Positions 4,938 to 56,500 of a stretch of 64,000 nucleotides of DNA are shown here, piece after piece. The DNA lies in assembly GCF_010450875.1 (NCBI RefSeq), contig NZ_CP048422.1:1109001-1173000 (forward strand), written 5' to 3'. Under the pieces are notes generated by a model, which was not told the origin of the DNA, did no database searches, and saw only the letters and a list, made by a program, of their open reading frames with translations. The DNA comes from Sphingomonas insulae (lineage in GTDB: Bacteria; Pseudomonadota; Alphaproteobacteria; Sphingomonadales; Sphingomonadaceae). The position numbers and the translations under genes are program-made. Position 1 is the stretch's first letter. Every line of letters begins with the position of its first letter.

Positions 4938-5786
4938 TCAGACGCTGGCGCGGAAGGATGTCGCGGTACGGGCATCGGAAAGTGACAGCGAGACTGCGGC
5001 CTGCTCGAACCAGGGCGTGACGAGCAGATGCGGGACGGCAAGCGCGGCGATGCCGGCAAACAGCGGCCGCACCCCGGATGGGTCCCAGCGGAGCAGCAGG
5101 CCACCCGCCAGCACGACGAGGAATAGCGCGGCAACGAGCACCGGTGCCGTGGCACGTAGATAGGCGGCGGTGGTGGCGCAGCCGAGCCGGGCTCGGCGCT
5201 CGACCGTCTGGGGCACCGCGTGGAGGATCAGGAATCCGACCGAGAAGCCGACCAGCGGCGGCAACACGATCAGCGCGACGGTCCCCGCCAGCAAACGCGT
5301 GTCGCGACACCGCAACCCGCAGACCAAAAGCCAGGTCGCTGCCGCACCGCCGGCGACGGCCATGGCCGCAGCCATCGCCATCGCGCTGGTCGTCCCGGCA
5401 AGGCGAAGGATGTCGGCCAGCGCCTCCATGTGCAGCGTCGCGGGGGTGGCGACGAGGCTGATGCCACGCGCAACCCTTTCCAGCGGTCTGTCCTCGGGGG
5501 CATCCTCCAGCCCGAAGTGAACCGCGGAGGCGATCAGGAAGGCCGGGAGCGCGATGGCGGGATCGGCGACCCACCACCACAGGCAGGTCGCGCCGACGAG
5601 GCCGTACAATGCGATAAACGATGCGCGTCGCGCGGGCGCCACGATCGCGAGGTCGCTGGCACCATGCGCCATGCCGACCACCCCGATTGCGACGACGGCA
5701 AAGGCGAGCTGGACGGCCAGCCCGCCAAAGGCGGCGGCCGCGGCCACCGCCAGCAACACGCCCCAGCCGATGGCCGGAGCGCGCAT
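4938..5786 (-). CDS. blh: Brp/Blh-family beta-carotene 15,15'-dioxygenase
   Basis: 282 residues, almost wholly transmembrane, with the histidines expected for the Brp/Blh family in or near membrane helices: VGMAHGASDL, SAVHFGLEDAPEDRPL, TLHMEALADI and LILHAVPQT. These enzymes cleave beta-carotene symmetrically into two retinal molecules, supplying the chromophore of rhodopsins. The gene begins two bases after the rhodopsin stop codon on the same strand, so the two form an operon. That neighbour is strong support for the call. The larger open frame that continues upstream of 5786 is an overlap with the rhodopsin gene and not a longer protein. Confidence 0.92.
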   Translation of the reverse strand: MRAPAIGWGVLLAVAAAAAFGGLAVQLAFAVVAIGVVGMAHGASDLAIVAPARRASFIALYGLVGATCLWWWVADPAIALPAFLIASAVHFGLEDAPEDRPLERVARGISLVATPATLHMEALADILRLAGTTSAMAMAAAMAVAGGAAATWLLVCGLRCRDTRLLAGTVALIVLPPLVGFSVGFLILHAVPQTVERRARLGCATTAAYLRATAPVLVAALFLVVLAGGLLLRWDPSGVRPLFAGIAALAVPHLLVTPWFEQAAVSLSLSDARTATSFRASV

Positions 5787-5788
5787 CG

Positions 5789-6502
5789 TCACGACTGCGG
5801 ACCGCGTACGTCGTCGTGCTGCGCCAGCGCCTTGTCGACGTTGGTCGCAGCATAGAAGGCATAAGCGACCTTCGCGACGACATCCATGACGAGGATCGCC
5901 CAGACCGATGTCGGATCGGTGATGACCTTCATCCCTTCCGGGCCGATCAGGAAGACGACCGGATACAGGAACCAGACGACGGTGAGGAAGGCGACGTTCT
6001 TGTTGTAGGCGGCCCCCAGCGCCGCACCACGGCTCATCGCCAGCGTGCGCAACGGACCCCACAGGAGATACAGGACGCCGAGGAACGCGGCGCACGACCA
6101 GGCATACCAGATCCACTTCGCCAGCGAGGGCGCGGCCAGCGACGAAACCAGGCCGGCGACGATCATCAACACGTCGAGGACGATGATCGCGGTGAGGTGT
6201 CCACCGACCTCGCCGGTGCGCCCACGCTCGTGGAAGGCGAGGAGGACGAGGCTGGACAGGAGGATCGGCGTCGTCACCGACCAGTCGAGATAGCGCGCGA
6301 GATAGGTGACCGAACCGTCGAGCTTGACCAGCGTCCCGATGCCGAAGGCCATGGCGAGATAGGCGGTCGCGGCGATAAACGGCACGCTGGCGTGCAGCAG
6401 CGTATGGTGGCCCGACGGGTGCGTCTTCTTGCCCGTCGCATATATCGCCAGCGAACCAAGCGACATGACGGTGAAGCCAAGGATGAAGGCAGTCTGATCC
6501 AT
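5789..6502 (-). CDS. Microbial (type I) rhodopsin, donor-less proton-pump type (D-T-S motif)
   Basis: 237 residues, seven hydrophobic helices. Aligned by eye to bacteriorhodopsin: R70 (R82), D73 (D85, proton acceptor), T77 (T89), S84 (D96, cytoplasmic donor, here serine), W177-Y180-P181 (W182, Y185, P186), E189 (E194), D207 (D212) and the retinal-binding K211 (K216) in VMDVVAKVAYAF. Helix B has H37 at the place of T46. A proteobacterial group of proton pumps that lacks the helix-C carboxylate (usually Gly) and has a helix-B histidine has been described; this protein fits it, with Ser for Gly. Y133 at the W138 position is bulky, arguing against a bound antenna carotenoid. I chose ATG 6502 because a start at 6655 would add a non-homologous, charged extension. 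Blh follows directly. Confidence 0.93.
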   Translation of the reverse strand: MDQTAFILGFTVMSLGSLAIYATGKKTHPSGHHTLLHASVPFIAATAYLAMAFGIGTLVKLDGSVTYLARYLDWSVTTPILLSSLVLLAFHERGRTGEVGGHLTAIIVLDVLMIVAGLVSSLAAPSLAKWIWYAWSCAAFLGVLYLLWGPLRTLAMSRGAALGAAYNKNVAFLTVVWFLYPVVFLIGPEGMKVITDPTSVWAILVMDVVAKVAYAFYAATNVDKALAQHDDVRGPQS

Positions 6503-7366
6503 GCGGGGATACCCCAATACGAGGGGACGACCCGGCGCCGACCCAATGGCAATAACACGGATTGTATCTTTTTGTGTCCACGACGATCGGTAGCGTGGCG
6601 AACATCGGCTGGGCGTCGTCCATTCCCTTTCCAGGGCAATGATCGCGGCACACACGCGTCACCGTCGACCAAGGTGCGCCCTCCACAACTGCCTCCGCGC
6701 CCGCGTCCCACATCCCCTTTTTGCGACGCCGGTTTCTACGATGGGGTGGGCTGGCAAGCCTTCCGGCGCGCGCCACCCGCGTCTGGCGAGGCGGTCGCCG
6801 CGCTAATAATCGGTTAGGCGCCGCCAGGCGACGATTGCGGCGGCACTGGGATGCGGCTGCGCGAAGACGGCCGATACGCCGAAGATGAGACGTTCGGCAC
6901 GGGGACATTGCACGGGGACTGCCCCGGGATCGATGACGGCGACCAGACGATCGCGGGGCACATCACAGGCATATCCAGGGATCGCCTCGCCATAGCGTGG
7001 ATGGGCGGCGCGGAGACAATGCTCACCCGATGCACAGACCCGAACATGTCGAACCGGTGAGGCCCGGCGTTCGAAGCCGGCACGAGCAGCAGCGCAACGA
7101 TCCGACGTTACGACCCCAAGGCGAGTTTCACGCCGATGGCGCGCGGTCAGGGCATTTTGTTCGTTTCCGGTCGCCCGGCGCGGGCACGGGCATCGGCTGC
7201 TCCTGGTCCGGGCGCAGGGGCAAGGTACGACGGACCGCTGCGTGGCAAATCGGCAACACCGCTACTGAATCAGCCCTATCGGAACAGGAAGGGTTTATCA
7301 CAAAACTGAAATCGGCAACATTGCTGCCACATCACCGCGCAGGTGCAGGCACACAGGGGTTGTTTC
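6503..7366. other. Divergent intergenic region between rhodopsin and TonB receptor
   Basis: About 860 bases with no convincing gene. Open frames at 6814-7083 (minus) and 6851-7060 (plus) lack any recognisable composition or motif. The stretch must contain the promoters for the rhodopsin-blh operon (minus) and the receptor (plus). A short A/T-rich patch near 6560-6575 on the rhodopsin side is the only promoter-like feature I see, and it is weak. Confidence 0.4.
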
Positions 7367-12758: not shown

Positions 12759-14942
12759 CTAGCCGCCCGGCCGATAGCGCCGTTCGACATGACCCTTCAG
12801 GTCGTCGGGATAGAAATAGACCGGGCGAAGCCTGCCTTGCGCATAGCGCGCGGTCTGGTCGGCGAAATGGCGCGATGTCGCATCGCCGCTCTGGCCGCCG
12901 GCCATCACCGCCATCGCCTTCACCCGCGGACCGAATTCGACGATGGCGACGAAGCTGTTGCCGCTGGTGCCGTAGTAGCGTTTCGTCCCCGGCCACGGCT
13001 TTGCGCCGAACGAGGCCAGGCTGCCCCATTGCGCCGAGGTGAAGGGCACCGGCAGGGACGGCTTTGCATCGTCGAAATGCGGCGCGATCGCATCGTCGAT
13101 CCGCTGGAACCGGTTGATCGTTCCCCATGGCACGCGCCAGTCGCCGAAATCGCGGCTCAGCTGGTCGACCGCGGCGGACAGTGCGGCAAGCCTCGCGTCC
13201 GCGCCGACACGGGTGGCGATATAGTCGGGGACGTTCAGCCGTTCGGCTTGCGCGAAGCTGCCGACCTCACGCCACAGATGGTCGCCCCAGAACACGGCAA
13301 GGCTGGTCGCTGCCGAACCCTGGCTCCAGCGATAGTCCCAGCCCTTCAGCAAGGCGATCGGGGCGGCCAGCGCCGCCCGGCGCGGATCGCGGGCGGGCAG
13401 GGCATCCCATGCCCCGACCAGGCCGGGCAGCAATCGTGCGAAGGCGGGCAGATAGGGATCGAACGCGGCGGCGCGGAGCGTGTCGGGCGTCCAGCCGGTC
13501 TTGCCCGTCAGCAACAGGTCGGCATGCACGCCGCGCGCGTTGCCGCCGACCTGATCCATGTATCGCGGATAGTCCTTGGCCCGCGGACTGCCGGGGCCGG
13601 CCGCGCTCCATGGCCAATCGTTGGTATTGTGCACCCATCCGGTACGCGGGGCGGCGACGCTCGGCAGGCTGGCAAGGCTGTGCAGACCGTGCCAGTCGGT
13701 CGCCGGATCGCTGCCGTCGACGGGGCGGGTATAGTCGAACCGGTCGCTGCGCACCGGCATGAACTGCGGCATCAGGAACGCGATCTCGCCCGTGTCGTCG
13801 GCGAACAGCGTGTCGTTGGACGCATTCGCCTTGCGCTCGGCGACCGCCATATAGCTGGCAAGATCGCGCGCCTTGGTCCGCAGATAGCTCTGTTCCAGGG
13901 CGGGGACGGGCCGCCACATCAGGGCGGTCGCGATCCAGCGCCCCGCCTTCATCGCGACGATCGGGCCGTGATGCGTGCGATAGGTGGTGACGCGCCGCGC
14001 CGCCATCGCGCCGTCGGCCTTCCGATAGCGCAGCGTGAGCGTGCGCGTCGCGACCGGACGCTGCTGCGTGCCGTAGCGGTAGACATAGCCCGCGCCCCGC
14101 CGCCCGATCCGCTCGGCGAATTCATCGACATTGTCGACGGTCGACGAGGTGTGCATCCATCCGGCCCTGGGGTTGAAGCCCTGATAGATGAAGAACTGGC
14201 CCCAGGTGCTCGCGCCATAGGCGTTGAGGCCTTCGGCGCTCGTCATCTGCGCCTCGGACCGGAAATAGAAGCTGGTGTGCGGGTTGATCAGCAGCAGCGC
14301 CTTGCCGTTCGCGGTCAGGCGCGGCGCGATGGCGATGCCGTTCGATCCCGACGGCTCGCGCGGCACCATGCCCAGCTCCGCGGGCGTGGGCGGGGTGGGC
14401 GTGCCGTAGAAGATTTTCAGATCGCTGAGCGATATCCGCTCGATATCGCCGCCGATGCTGCCCTCGGTGAAGCTGAGCGCCATCCACGGTTCGAAGCGGG
14501 TCAGGACTTTGGGCCTGGTCTGCGGATGGGTCGCCAGATAGTAATTCAGCCCGTCGGCCCAGGCCTGCATCAGCGTGCGCAACCAGGCCGGGCTGGCGGC
14601 ATAGTCGGCCTGCAGCGCGGCGGGATCGACGAACAGCCGTTGGCGCAGATCGGCCCAGATCGCATCCTCGCCATAAGCCTCCGCCGTCCGGCCGAGCGCG
14701 GCGAGGTAATTGGCCTCGATCCGGGGAAAGTCGTCCTCGGCCTGCGCATACATCAGGCCGAACACCGCATCGGCATCCGTCTGCCCCTGGATATGCGGGA
14801 TGCCCCAATCGTCGCGCGTGATGGTGACGCGCGCGGCCTGCGCCTGCCAGCGTGTCGCGGGCGGCGGCGCGGACGTGGGGGCCATCGTCAGCAGGGCCAG
14901 CAGGATCACCGGATTGCGCGCGCACCGAAGGACCTTATCCAT
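12759..14942 (-). CDS. Penicillin acylase family Ntn hydrolase, exported
   Basis: 727 residues from the ATG at 14942. The signal peptide is MDKVLRCARNPVILLALLTMA. The alpha-chain has VTITRDDWGIPHIQGQTDADAVFGLMYAQAEDDFPRI. The autocatalytic cleavage site lies in REPSGSNGIAIAP, where the Ser before Asn is the expected N-terminal nucleophile of the beta-chain. Other family blocks are LLINPHTSFYFRSE and HTSSTVDNVDEF. Family members hydrolyse amide bonds of acylated substrates (penicillins, acyl-homoserine lactones, N-acyl amino acids); the true substrate is unknown. It is transcribed away from a LysR regulator 70 bases upstream, the classic arrangement for control by that regulator. A longer start at 14966 is possible. 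Confidence 0.9.
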   Translation of the reverse strand: MDKVLRCARNPVILLALLTMAPTSAPPPATRWQAQAARVTITRDDWGIPHIQGQTDADAVFGLMYAQAEDDFPRIEANYLAALGRTAEAYGEDAIWADLRQRLFVDPAALQADYAASPAWLRTLMQAWADGLNYYLATHPQTRPKVLTRFEPWMALSFTEGSIGGDIERISLSDLKIFYGTPTPPTPAELGMVPREPSGSNGIAIAPRLTANGKALLLINPHTSFYFRSEAQMTSAEGLNAYGASTWGQFFIYQGFNPRAGWMHTSSTVDNVDEFAERIGRRGAGYVYRYGTQQRPVATRTLTLRYRKADGAMAARRVTTYRTHHGPIVAMKAGRWIATALMWRPVPALEQSYLRTKARDLASYMAVAERKANASNDTLFADDTGEIAFLMPQFMPVRSDRFDYTRPVDGSDPATDWHGLHSLASLPSVAAPRTGWVHNTNDWPWSAAGPGSPRAKDYPRYMDQVGGNARGVHADLLLTGKTGWTPDTLRAAAFDPYLPAFARLLPGLVGAWDALPARDPRRAALAAPIALLKGWDYRWSQGSAATSLAVFWGDHLWREVGSFAQAERLNVPDYIATRVGADARLAALSAAVDQLSRDFGDWRVPWGTINRFQRIDDAIAPHFDDAKPSLPVPFTSAQWGSLASFGAKPWPGTKRYYGTSGNSFVAIVEFGPRVKAMAVMAGGQSGDATSRHFADQTARYAQGRLRPVYFYPDDLKGHVERRYRPGG

Positions 14943-15012
14943 GCGAGGCAGCCTAGGGCGGGACAAGGGGAAAGACCATGCATCGGCAAACGATCACCGG
15001 GCTGATGCCGGC

Positions 15013-15894: not shown

Positions 15895-15981
15895 CTCGAC
15901 GTTATGGGTCACGTCGCGCTCGGTATGGGACGGCCCCGCTCGCCCGCGTATGATCCCGCCGTCTGCTATGAAAGTGCGCGC

Positions 15982-16995
15982 GTGATCGTCGGCCCCTTCC
16001 TGCTGTATATCGGCCGCATCGCCAATCCGCTCGACATCAAGACCTCGCGCGGCATGGCGGTGTTCCGGCGTGAGGATTGCGTCGGCGAATTCCGCCATGA
16101 CGATGGTCCGTTGACGCTGGGCCTGCCGCGGTTCGATTTTGCGGAGGCGGTCGCGGCAGGGGCGCGAACGCTGATCCTCGGCGTCGCGGCGGCGGGCGGG
16201 CGCATGGATGCGACGATGATCGCCGACGTCGTCGCCGCCCTTGACGCGGGTCTCGACGTCGCGGCCGGACTGCACCAGCGGCTGCGCGATGCGCCTGCCA
16301 TCGCGGCCGCGGCGCAGGCGGGCGGGCGGAAGCTGTACGACGTCCGCGACCCTGCCGCGCCGCCGCAGGTCGGCACCGGCCAGCCGCGGGCAGGGCGTCG
16401 GCTGCTGACGGTCGGCACCGATTGCGCGGTCGGCAAGATGTACACCGCGCTGCACCTGACGGCGGGCCTGCGCTCGCGCGGCGTCGCGGCCGACTTCCGC
16501 GCGACCGGGCAGACGGGGATCATGATCGCCGGGGCGGGCGTGCCGATCGACGCGGTCGTCGCCGATTTCCTGTCGGGCGCGGTCGAATGGCTGTCGCCCG
16601 CGCGCCACGATAACGGCTGGGACGTGATCGAGGGGCAGGGGTCGCTGTTCCACCCGTCGTTCGCCGGCGTTTCGACCGGTCTTCTCCACGGCGCGCAGCC
16701 CGACGCGGTGGTGCTGTGCCATGATCCGCTGCGCACGCATCTGCGCGGACTGCCGCACATGCCCGTGCCCGATATTGTTATGTGCCTCGACCGCAATCTG
16801 GCGGTCGCGCGGCTGACCAACCCCATGGTGCAGGCCGTCGGCGTCTCGCTCAACACCGCACGCATGGCAGCGCCTGATGCCCTGGCATTGTGTGGCGCGA
16901 TCGCGGATCGCACCGGGCTTCCCTGCGTCGATCCCGTGACGACGGGTGTCGCGCCGATCCTCGACCGCCTGTCCGCGCGCGCCATCGCTGCCTGA
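15982..16995 (+). CDS. DUF1611 / DgcN-like family protein
   Basis: About 337 residues from GTG 15982, or 363 from ATG 15904. I prefer GTG because the conserved family N-terminus appears to begin at GPFLLYIGRIANPLDIKTSRG. A P-loop is present (LLTVGTDCAVGKMYTALHL), followed by RATGQTGIMIAGAGVPIDAVVADF, WDVIEGQGSLFHP and VGVSLNT, all DUF1611 blocks. As I recall, DgcN of this family N-acetylates D-glutamate in a D-amino-acid catabolic route whose partner is the racemase-type DgcA; no dgcA is in this window. Same strand and close behind the LysR gene. Cytoplasmic. Family call firm, reaction uncertain. Confidence 0.8.
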   Translation: MIVGPFLLYIGRIANPLDIKTSRGMAVFRREDCVGEFRHDDGPLTLGLPRFDFAEAVAAGARTLILGVAAAGGRMDATMIADVVAALDAGLDVAAGLHQRLRDAPAIAAAAQAGGRKLYDVRDPAAPPQVGTGQPRAGRRLLTVGTDCAVGKMYTALHLTAGLRSRGVAADFRATGQTGIMIAGAGVPIDAVVADFLSGAVEWLSPARHDNGWDVIEGQGSLFHPSFAGVSTGLLHGAQPDAVVLCHDPLRTHLRGLPHMPVPDIVMCLDRNLAVARLTNPMVQAVGVSLNTARMAAPDALALCGAIADRTGLPCVDPVTTGVAPILDRLSARAIAA

Positions 16996-54216: not shown

Positions 54217-54253
54217 CTTGCTTTCGCCTCGCCTCGGCCCTAGGGGCGCCTTC

Positions 54254-54440
54254 GCGACAGGTTCCCAGAGATGGGATGAAAAGGGAACCCGGAAGCGAGC
54301 GCTTTGGTCGCTCGCCATCCGGGGCTGCCCCCGCAACTGTGACCGGCGAGCCTTGCTCCTCCGCGTGCCACTGGATCCTCCACGATCCGGGAAGGCCGGG
54401 CCAGGCGACGACCCGGAAGCCAGGAGACCTGCCCGTCGTG
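54254..54440 (+). promoter_or_regulatory. Cobalamin (AdoCbl) riboswitch
   Basis: Conserved elements in order on the plus strand: GACAGGTTCCC (54256 region), GGGAACCCGGAAG, the B12 box GGGGCTGCCCCCGCAACTGTGAC with flanking pairs, CCGGGAAGGCCGG, and the closing GACCCGGAAGCCAGGAGACCTGCC. It lies about 145 bases before the btuB GTG start, so it should lower expression of the whole import/salvage operon when adenosylcobalamin is plentiful. The expression platform lies between 54440 and 54583. Confidence 0.95.
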
Positions 54441-54583
54441 GTTGTCCTTCGTGCGGACGGGGTGTTCCTGCGCGATCGAGGTTTTCCTCGCGTGACGACG
54501 GTGTTGGGGTCGTGCGCGGCGGAACGGCGATTTCCGTGCAAGCGCCGGCGCGTCCCCGTTGTTGAAACGAGGGGGATACCATC

Positions 54584-56500
54584 GTGAAGAATTATGCCTG
54601 TCTGATCCTGCTGCCGTGCATCGCCGCGGCCGCACCCGCCGTCGCGCAGAGCGCCCAATCCACCAGCGGCCTGACCGAAGCCGCCGATGCCGGCACCGAC
54701 ATCCTCGTCACCGCCAACCGCGAGGCGCGGCCCGCGTCCACCGTCGGCCAGGCGGTGACCGTGCTCGACACCGCGACGATCACGCAGCGCCAGGCGGTGA
54801 CGGTGTCCGACCTGCTGCGCCAGACGCCCGGCGTCACCGTGACGCGCAACGGCGGTGTCGGCACGTCGACCTCGGTCAACATCCGCGGCGCGGAAAGCGA
54901 CCAGACCGTCGCGCTGATCGACGGCATCAAGCTGAACGACCCGTCGTCGCCCGGCGGCGGCTTCAACTTCGGCAGCCTGCTGATCGGCAACATCGCGCGC
55001 ATCGAGGTGCTGCGCGGTGCGCAGTCGGTGCTGTGGGGCAGCCAGGCGATCGGCGGCGTCGTCAACCTCATCACCCGCCAGCCGACCGAGCAGCTGCGTG
55101 TCAACGCCCGCGCCGAGGGCGGCTGGCACGAGACGGGGCAGGCGTTCGCCAACGTGTCGGGCAAGAGCGGCCCGGTCTCGGCGAGCTTCGGCGGCGGTTA
55201 TTACACGACGGACGGCATCTCGGCCTATGCGCCGGGCAAGGAGCGCGACGGCTTCCGCAACTATTCCGCCAACGGCAGCGTCGGCATCGCGCTGGCGCAG
55301 AACGTGTCGGTCGACCTGCGCGGCTTCTATGCCAACGGCCGCACCGATATCGACGGTTTCGGACGCGACAGCCGCGAATATGGCGACAGCGAACAGTGGA
55401 TCGGATACGCCGGCCTCAACGCCGCGCTGTTCGATGGCCGCTTCCGCAACCGGATCGGCTATGCGCATACCGACAGCGACCGCCGCAACACCGACCCCGA
55501 CGGCACCCCGACCGAGACGTTCCGCGGCATCGGCCGCAACGACCGTCTGGAATATCAGGGGACGGTGGACGTCACCAAGGCGGTCTTCGCGACCTTCGGC
55601 GCGGAGCGGGAGGTTTCGCGCTTCTCGACGTCGAGCTACGGCGGTCCGGTGACGCGCGGCCGCGCCCGCATCTTCAGCGTCTACGGCCAGGTCGCGGTGA
55701 CGCCGATCGCCGGGCTGACCGGCACCGCGGGCGTGCGCCACGACGATCACAACATCTTTGGCGGCGCGACGACGTTTTCGGGCAGCGGCGTCTATTCGCC
55801 CAACGGCGGCGCGACCGCGTTCCGCGCGAGCTATTCGGAAGGGTTCAAGGCGCCGACTTTGTACCAGCTGCAGAGCGAATACGGGAACACCGCGCTCGAC
55901 CCCGAACGCTCGCACGGCTGGGACGCCGGCGTGACGCAAAAGGCGATGGGCGGCGCGGTCGAGGCGAGCGCGACCTATTTCAAGCGCAATTCGTTCGACC
56001 TCATCACCTTCGTGTCCTGCACCCGGCCGCTGACCGGCATCTGCACCGGCAAGCCCAACGGCACCTACGACAACATCGCACGCGCGCGGGCGCAGGGTGT
56101 CGAACTGTCGCTGCTGCTGCGCCCGGTAGAGGCGCTGACGTTCAGCGCCGCCTACACCTATCTGGATGCCAAGAACCGGTCGACCGGCACCGCCAATTTC
56201 GGTCGCGACCTTGCCCGCCGGCCCGACAACAGCATGACGGTGAACGCCGATTACCGCTGGCCGTTCGGCCTCACCACCGGTGCGACGATCACCGCGATCG
56301 GCGACAGCTTCGACAATGCGTCCAATGCGCGCCGGCTCGATGGGTACGTCGTCACCGACGTGCGCGCCTCGTTCCCGATCGGTGATCATTTCGAGGTGTA
56401 TGGTCGCGTCGAGAACGTCTTCGACGAACGCTACCAGACGATCTACCAATATGGTCAGCCCGGTCGCGGCGCGTTCGGCGGCATCCGCCTGACCTATTGA
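54584..56500 (+). CDS. btuB: TonB-dependent vitamin B12 receptor
   Basis: 638 residues from GTG 54584, with CGAGGGGG upstream. Signal peptide ending PAVAQSAQS. TonB box TDILVTANREARP. The plug has TVSDLLRQTPGVTVTRNGG, VNIRGAESDQTVALIDGIKLNDPSSPGG and IARIEVLRGAQSVLWGSQAIGGVVNLITR, typical of BtuB. The barrel ends GRGAFGGIRLTY. Position directly under a cobalamin riboswitch and at the head of the B12 operon makes the substrate call firm. Outer membrane. Confidence 0.95.
   Translation: MKNYACLILLPCIAAAAPAVAQSAQSTSGLTEAADAGTDILVTANREARPASTVGQAVTVLDTATITQRQAVTVSDLLRQTPGVTVTRNGGVGTSTSVNIRGAESDQTVALIDGIKLNDPSSPGGGFNFGSLLIGNIARIEVLRGAQSVLWGSQAIGGVVNLITRQPTEQLRVNARAEGGWHETGQAFANVSGKSGPVSASFGGGYYTTDGISAYAPGKERDGFRNYSANGSVGIALAQNVSVDLRGFYANGRTDIDGFGRDSREYGDSEQWIGYAGLNAALFDGRFRNRIGYAHTDSDRRNTDPDGTPTETFRGIGRNDRLEYQGTVDVTKAVFATFGAEREVSRFSTSSYGGPVTRGRARIFSVYGQVAVTPIAGLTGTAGVRHDDHNIFGGATTFSGSGVYSPNGGATAFRASYSEGFKAPTLYQLQSEYGNTALDPERSHGWDAGVTQKAMGGAVEASATYFKRNSFDLITFVSCTRPLTGICTGKPNGTYDNIARARAQGVELSLLLRPVEALTFSAAYTYLDAKNRSTGTANFGRDLARRPDNSMTVNADYRWPFGLTTGATITAIGDSFDNASNARRLDGYVVTDVRASFPIGDHFEVYGRVENVFDERYQTIYQYGQPGRGAFGGIRLTY

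Follow-up and report, generated by a model that had tools for sequence, protein, structure and literature searches.

The window analysed here, a 64,000-nucleotide stretch of the Sphingomonas insulae genome, carries a microbial rhodopsin gene on its minus strand, with a gene for retinal synthesis adjoining its 3' end and a conserved block of DNA, common to Sphingomonas relatives, 18 to 80 bases upstream of its start. The block is laid out as a promoter-like pair, GG...(C/T)GTT, followed by a conserved candidate hairpin. The features are listed below, where BR is bacteriorhodopsin and SpaR is the rhodopsin of Sphingomonas paucimobilis, together with the evidence for each.

5789..6502, minus strand: mirror proteorhodopsin gene, 237 aa, DTS motif (translation, PF01036, match to 8anq/SpaR, tree)
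6392..6394, minus strand: codon of H37, which aligns with BR T46; by analogy with SpaR, the likely internal proton donor
6284..6286, minus strand: codon of D73, proton acceptor (kept in 121 of 121 rows)
6251..6253, minus strand: codon of S84 (AGC), which aligns with BR D96 (sequence; S84 also in SpaR)
5870..5872, minus strand: codon of K211, retinal Schiff base lysine (kept in 121 of 121 rows)
4938..5792, minus strand: blh, Brp/Blh-family beta-carotene 15,15'-dioxygenase, retinal synthesis (TIGR03753, PF15461)
6554..6579, minus strand: promoter-like pair GGACA-N18-GTT, a putative variant of the EcfG pattern (upstream alignment, motif of PMC6599016)
6524..6544, minus strand: candidate hairpin or inverted repeat, GGGTCGGC-N5-GTCGTCCC, upstream of the rhodopsin start (alignments, model R1)

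The rhodopsin gene runs from an ATG at 6502..6500 to a TGA at 5791..5789. An earlier, sequence-only reading had given its coordinates exactly, leaving the strand to be added, and had placed H37, D73, T77, S84, D207 and K211 at numbers that the translation and alignment bear out. The 237-residue protein matches the Bac_rhodopsin family of Pfam (PF01036, E = 3.5e-45) and has 306 homologues at E <= 1e-3, far beyond chance. Of the proteins with solved structures, chain 8anq_B matches best (E = 6.3e-118, 395 bits). The second best is 7w74 (1e-73, 251 bits), which we take to be PspR of Pseudomonas putida; matches to archaeal and Anabaena proteins and to xenorhodopsin score far lower. The blh gene matches TIGR03753 at 102.4 bits, above the cut-off of 95.25, and matches PF15461 as well. 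Its first possible start, a GTG at 5792, overlaps the rhodopsin stop, and a second, an ATG, lies at 5786. The other neighbours recognised with Pfam are a DUF4142 protein, a polyketide-cyclase-like protein, two dehydrogenases and a divergent TonB receptor.

Which kind of rhodopsin does the gene encode? The residues at positions 73, 77 and 84 spell DTS, which fits the DTS/DTG/DTT group, although the three-letter motif alone does not predict rhodopsin function (PMC10154332). In an alignment of the window protein (P0002) with the best 120 of the 306 homologues, D73, T77, D207 and K211 are present in all 121 rows. In the same alignment, H37 is found in each of the 120 rows that have a residue there (one gap), H33 is likewise without exception apart from one gap, and H32 occurs in 119 of the 120 rows with a residue at that position. 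A quick tree of 51 rows was built from 76 gathered, after removal of exact duplicates, of the partial ORFs L037 and L041, and of L001 and L048, which are the window itself; the outgroup rows L082-L107 of a class-wide search were left out. In this tree, the window rhodopsin groups with DTS and DTG rows of Sphingomonas, including S. paucimobilis (L018), with a support of 96* for the branch shared with the rhodopsin of genome G285 and of 98* for a set of eleven rows. The SpaR-like clade as a whole comprises 43 rows with a support of 92, which is not starred. Outside it fall the DSA rows of Hymenobacter, one DTA row, the DTE rows and L055, and the tree program gave a long-branch warning for L055, L053, L032, L034, L109 and L110. 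Taken together with the best solved matches, 8anq and 7w74, the tree supports the proposal of the sequence-only reading that the protein belongs with the donor-less DTG/DTS proton pumps of proteobacteria. The sequence, the clade, the conserved residues and the gene neighbourhood are established directly here.

The closest solved relative is SpaR (8ANQ), the representative of the published "mirror proteorhodopsins", a clade of 103 DTG, DTS and DTT rhodopsins (PMC10154332). Identity to the window protein is 78% over 233 residues, a figure computed against the protein of the S. paucimobilis NBRC 13935 locus (L018), in which stretches of the 8anq sequence occur. The two proteins share D73, T77, S84, H37, H32, H33, E92, D207 and K211, and the SpaR locus, like the window, has a blh match 3' of the rhodopsin gene. 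About 22% of residues differ, including S83 of the window protein, which is alanine in SpaR; no functional difference between the two would be predicted from these sequences. PspR, a DTG rhodopsin that also belongs to the donor-less pump family, is less similar (251 bits for 7w74 vs 395 for SpaR) and has glycine at position 84, where the window protein has serine. In Sphingomonas aerolata, two homologues of the P. putida DTG/DTS pump each lie beside a beta-carotene dioxygenase gene (PMC9584328).

SpaR has been characterised in some depth. It pumps protons outward at pH below 6.5 and is inhibited by zinc, and its H37, at the place of BR T46 and within hydrogen-bond distance of S84, has been proposed as an internal proton donor (PMC10154332). 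Replacing S84 with Asp or Glu lowers pumping at pH 6.5 and speeds up M decay, with a photocycle that still takes about 1 s (PMC10154332). Seven H37 mutants have been described: pumping is blocked in F and L, incompletely blocked in A and Y, and little changed in K, R and N (PMC10154332). Because H37K, H37R and H37N still pump, the role of H37 as sole donor is not settled. The mutants H32A/H33A and D73N are described as well, and the string S84G does not appear in the main text of that paper (PMC10154332).

In all probability, the window protein is a light-driven outward proton pump of the SpaR-like, mirror-proteorhodopsin clade in a Sphingomonas. Pumping, its pH range, the role of H37, the cavity and zinc inhibition would carry over from SpaR by analogy. 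Light would isomerise the retinal on K211, and a proton would pass from the Schiff base to D73. At acidic pH, H37 on helix B would return a proton, alone or within a group, in place of a helix-C carboxylate. Above about pH 6-6.5, slow reprotonation from the cytoplasm would take place via a wide cavity with H32, H33 and E92 in its walls. S84, with H37 at hydrogen-bond distance, would be a small permissive residue rather than a donor, at a position where either glycine or serine is possible. The retinal itself would be made from beta-carotene by the product of the downstream blh gene.

Two other functions have to be weighed against proton pumping. DTG/DTS rhodopsins also form a second, separate clade, one member of which, MpR of Methylobacterium populi (DTG motif), is reported to pump Na+/Li+ (PMC10154332), and the window protein could in principle likewise be a light-driven pump for these ions. 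The three-letter motifs are indeed similar, but MpR-like rhodopsins have acidic residues at 30/31/33 (SpaR numbering), whereas the window protein has S30, G31 and H33. It also has all four residues of the pattern seen in the SpaR-like clade, H32, H33, S121 and S199 (pattern and acidic-residue criteria taken from PMC10154332). In the 51-row tree, where no row is a named MpR sequence, it groups with SpaR (L018), and the one row with E30 and E31, L055 from genome G261, falls outside the clade on a long branch. A Na+/Li+ pump is thus very improbable. A sensory rhodopsin or xenorhodopsin-like photoreceptor is, if anything, harder still to credit. The solved matches do include the Anabaena sensory rhodopsin (ASR) and xenorhodopsins, and ASR is also of DTS type (PMC10154332), but ASR reaches 97 bits and xenorhodopsin 106 bits, against 395 for SpaR. 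The sequence-only reading had named two signs of a photoreceptor, clustering with sensory rhodopsins and an adjacent transducer gene. In the tree, the window rhodopsin sits with the DTG/DTS pumps instead of the sensory rhodopsins, and no transducer gene is present among the neighbours checked at this locus (ORFs and Pfam).

What does serine at position 84 mean? The sequence-only reading had presented it, in place of the more usual glycine, as a variant whose reprotonation route is worth measuring. That argument loses its force here. In the alignment of P0002 with the best 120 of 306 homologues, position 84 is Gly in 69 rows, Ser in 51 and Thr in 1, so serine is no rare variant among close relatives, and its state changes several times over the tree. 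SpaR itself has serine, and its structure, pH dependence, S84D and S84E mutants and H37 mutants are published (PMC10154332). In the 51-row quick tree, the DTS label changes at least 6 times, with 4 of the changes forced by starred branches. In a tree of 156 rows built without column 84 (94 Gly, 60 Ser, 2 Thr), the state at this position changes 13 times. The codons in 42 rows from the loci are AGC or AGT for Ser (12), GGN for Gly (29) and ACC for Thr (1). Serine and glycine have thus replaced each other repeatedly in small steps. This exchange within the clade shows that the lost donor site tolerates both residues.

An adaptive role for S84, with DTS and DTG members differing in reprotonation route or pH range, is unlikely, although it has points in its favour. 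The same recurrent changes (6 of the DTS label among 51 rows, 13 of state among 156) could reflect selection, and S84 can hydrogen-bond H37 in SpaR (PMC10154332). Among the associations listed for the 156-row tree, the strongest covariation with Ser/Gly 84 is at positions 75 and 229, with threonine at position 75 in 35 of 60 Ser rows vs 3 of 94 Gly rows. However, AGC and AGT are one base from GGC and GGT in the 42 rows, and drift therefore suffices for the exchange. Moreover, the starred branches yield only 4 independent pairs, too few for covariation with position 84 to attain significance at 0.05. S84 is more plausibly just permissive. The family, the Ser84 motif and the mechanism are already known. 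Within its clade, which has a solved and mutated representative in SpaR, the window protein is unexceptional, and it is of value as a natural homologue of that representative.

The pairing of rhodopsin and blh is widespread. Of the 46 loci examined in named genomes, 40 have a blh match 3' of the rhodopsin gene, and this match is partial in L032, L041 and L047. The six loci without one are L037, L038 and L043, from Parapontixanthobacter and Erythrobacter, and L044-L046, from Hymenobacter. In Sphingomonas sp. Leaf208 and H160509 (L041 and L047), a partial rhodopsin (residues 68-202 and 57-119, respectively) adjoins the partial blh, which suggests decay of the rhodopsin-blh operon. Rhodopsin matches occur in 72 of the 295 genomes of the GTDB genus and in 36 of 385 genomes drawn from the class. 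The window's own genome (3.74 Mb in 5 contigs) contains a single rhodopsin, a single blh and, elsewhere, one strong lycopene cyclase match at 296 bits, a family that gives matches in 10 of 14 controls. Dual phototrophy was considered and rejected, since a search for the reaction-centre family Photo_RC (PF00124) alone gave no match in this genome. Genome G069 has three rhodopsin matches, two of them convergent and about 1.1 kb apart; one of the convergent pair, L053, is of DTA type and groups with the DSA rows of Hymenobacter. H32, which contributes to a putative zinc site of SpaR, is replaced by Asn in L029, L030 and L039 of Rosenbergiella and by Thr, Pro or Glu in L032, L033 and L034 of Sphingomonas, with H33 and H37 kept in all six rows. 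These rhodopsins are natural test cases for zinc inhibition.

The conserved upstream block is the only fresh lead at this locus, and any function for it would be predicted from sequence. Its promoter-like pair was examined in the upstream regions of the window and 28 other Sphingomonadaceae loci, with 8 gammaproteobacterial or Erythrobacter loci set aside before counting. GG-N3-N16-18-CGTT occurs in 17 of the 29 regions, compared with 4.0 on average and at most 11 in shuffled sequences, and with 4 for the reverse strand; the window, with GGACA-N18-GTT, is not among these 17. Looser variants, from a list written after looking at the regions, occur in 12 of the 29, compared with a shuffle mean of 0.6 and a maximum of 3. 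In S. melonis Fr1, the EcfG motif reads GGAAC-N17-20-GTT (PMC6599016). As in such EcfG-type general-stress promoters of Sphingomonas, the window has GG on the -35 side and GTT on the -10 side, here with N18 between them. The likeness is inexact, however: their -35 element is GGAAC, whereas that of the window is GGACA, and exact GGAAC-N16-18-CGTT has no match in the 29 upstream regions or in the window. The word rhodopsin is absent from the main text of PMC6599016, and a literature search on EcfG with rhodopsin and the general stress response gave no paper in the library searched. Searches on rhodopsin regulation in Sphingomonas and on proteorhodopsin leaders gave nothing on an upstream element among the matches listed.

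Support for the hairpin is suggestive and comes from comparison between species. In alignment A3, which has 30 rows and omits L014 (badly aligned in A2), 82.5% of cells pair vs 78.3% in shuffles, a value reached by 0 of 500 shuffles, and sliding the partner strand lowers pairing to 32-58%. Cells changed on both sides number 15 vs 7.3, again reached by 0 of 500 shuffles, as is the covariation score. Two other measures do not exceed the shuffles: how many pairs show a double change (reached by 232 of 500 shuffles) and how many pair types occur (269 of 500). All 30 rows have C-G as the innermost pair; at the fourth pair, 22 rows have C-G and 5 have U-A, and at the fifth, 18 of 30 are mismatched. 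Alignment A2, with 31 rows and one more pair, gives a weaker result (77.8%, reached by 17 of 500 shuffles), and RNAalifold retains the four inner pairs only. Among 8 leaders folded singly, only L020 is unusually stable (z -3.16), with the others between -1.70 and 0.08. The folding energy of the window leader is not unusual (z = 0.08), so that the case for the hairpin is a comparative one. It is absent from the minimum-energy folds of L028 and of L018, the leader of SpaR itself. Because related sequences can exceed shuffles without structure, this support is not proof. An RNA hairpin and a DNA palindrome look alike in these data.

To gauge the specificity of the element, a covariance model of it, R1, was searched in 121 of the genus's 295 genomes and gave 30 matches in 25 genomes at E 0.01. 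The window match (6520..6582, minus strand) scores 52.6 bits, the window row being in the training set. The 14 best matches (E 3.7e-5 or lower, window included) each lie directly before a rhodopsin match. Of the 13 that became loci, 11, including the window, contain an exact copy of a training row, the exceptions being L117 and L123. Hence, only two loci test the model beyond its training rows, and one of these is independent so far as was checked. In L123, from genome G245, the rhodopsin is 76% identical and duplicates no row used, and the leader has GGGTCGGC-N5-GTCGTCCC; the element thus occurs in a locus outside the training set (L123/L131). A match in genome G154 (E 2.6e-4) was taken as chance, being inside an ORF (L124) of a genome without a rhodopsin match, and weaker matches, at E 2.6e-4 and above, are accordingly treated as noise. 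In the window's own genome, the next-best match has E 0.0097 vs 1e-10 at the rhodopsin site. A genome-wide hairpin regulon was rejected on this runner-up and on a loose pattern that occurs 11 times vs 28 for the reversed control. At E 1, R1 has no match in Pantoea, Erwinia, Rosenbergiella, Erythrobacter or the divergent Sphingomonas loci L031, L032 and L034, and S. hominis (L014), a close relative, scores only 11.6 bits. These absences and the weak L014 score count against an essential role.

One tentative interpretation, which we regard as possible rather than probable, is that the block is a conserved cis element. It would combine an EcfG-like stress promoter with a short hairpin, often mismatched internally, at or just after the probable transcription start, and the hairpin would set mRNA stability or bind a regulator. 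If so, the element would tie the pump to the general stress response or to a light-stress response, making phototrophy part of a stress programme. A functional element would also offer a handle on the regulation of retinal phototrophy in Sphingomonas.

The remainder of the window holds several other features. A cobalamin riboswitch (RF00174, 114.7 bits) lies at 54242-54450 on the plus strand, followed by an ORF at 54584-56500 that by eye resembles a BtuB-type TonB receptor and then by ORFs that look cobalamin-related. A penicillin-amidase family protein (PF01804, E 3.5e-119) is encoded at 12759-14966 on the minus strand. A DUF1611 protein (PF07755/PF17396), at 15904-16995 on the plus strand, adjoins an ORF that by eye resembles a LysR-type regulator.
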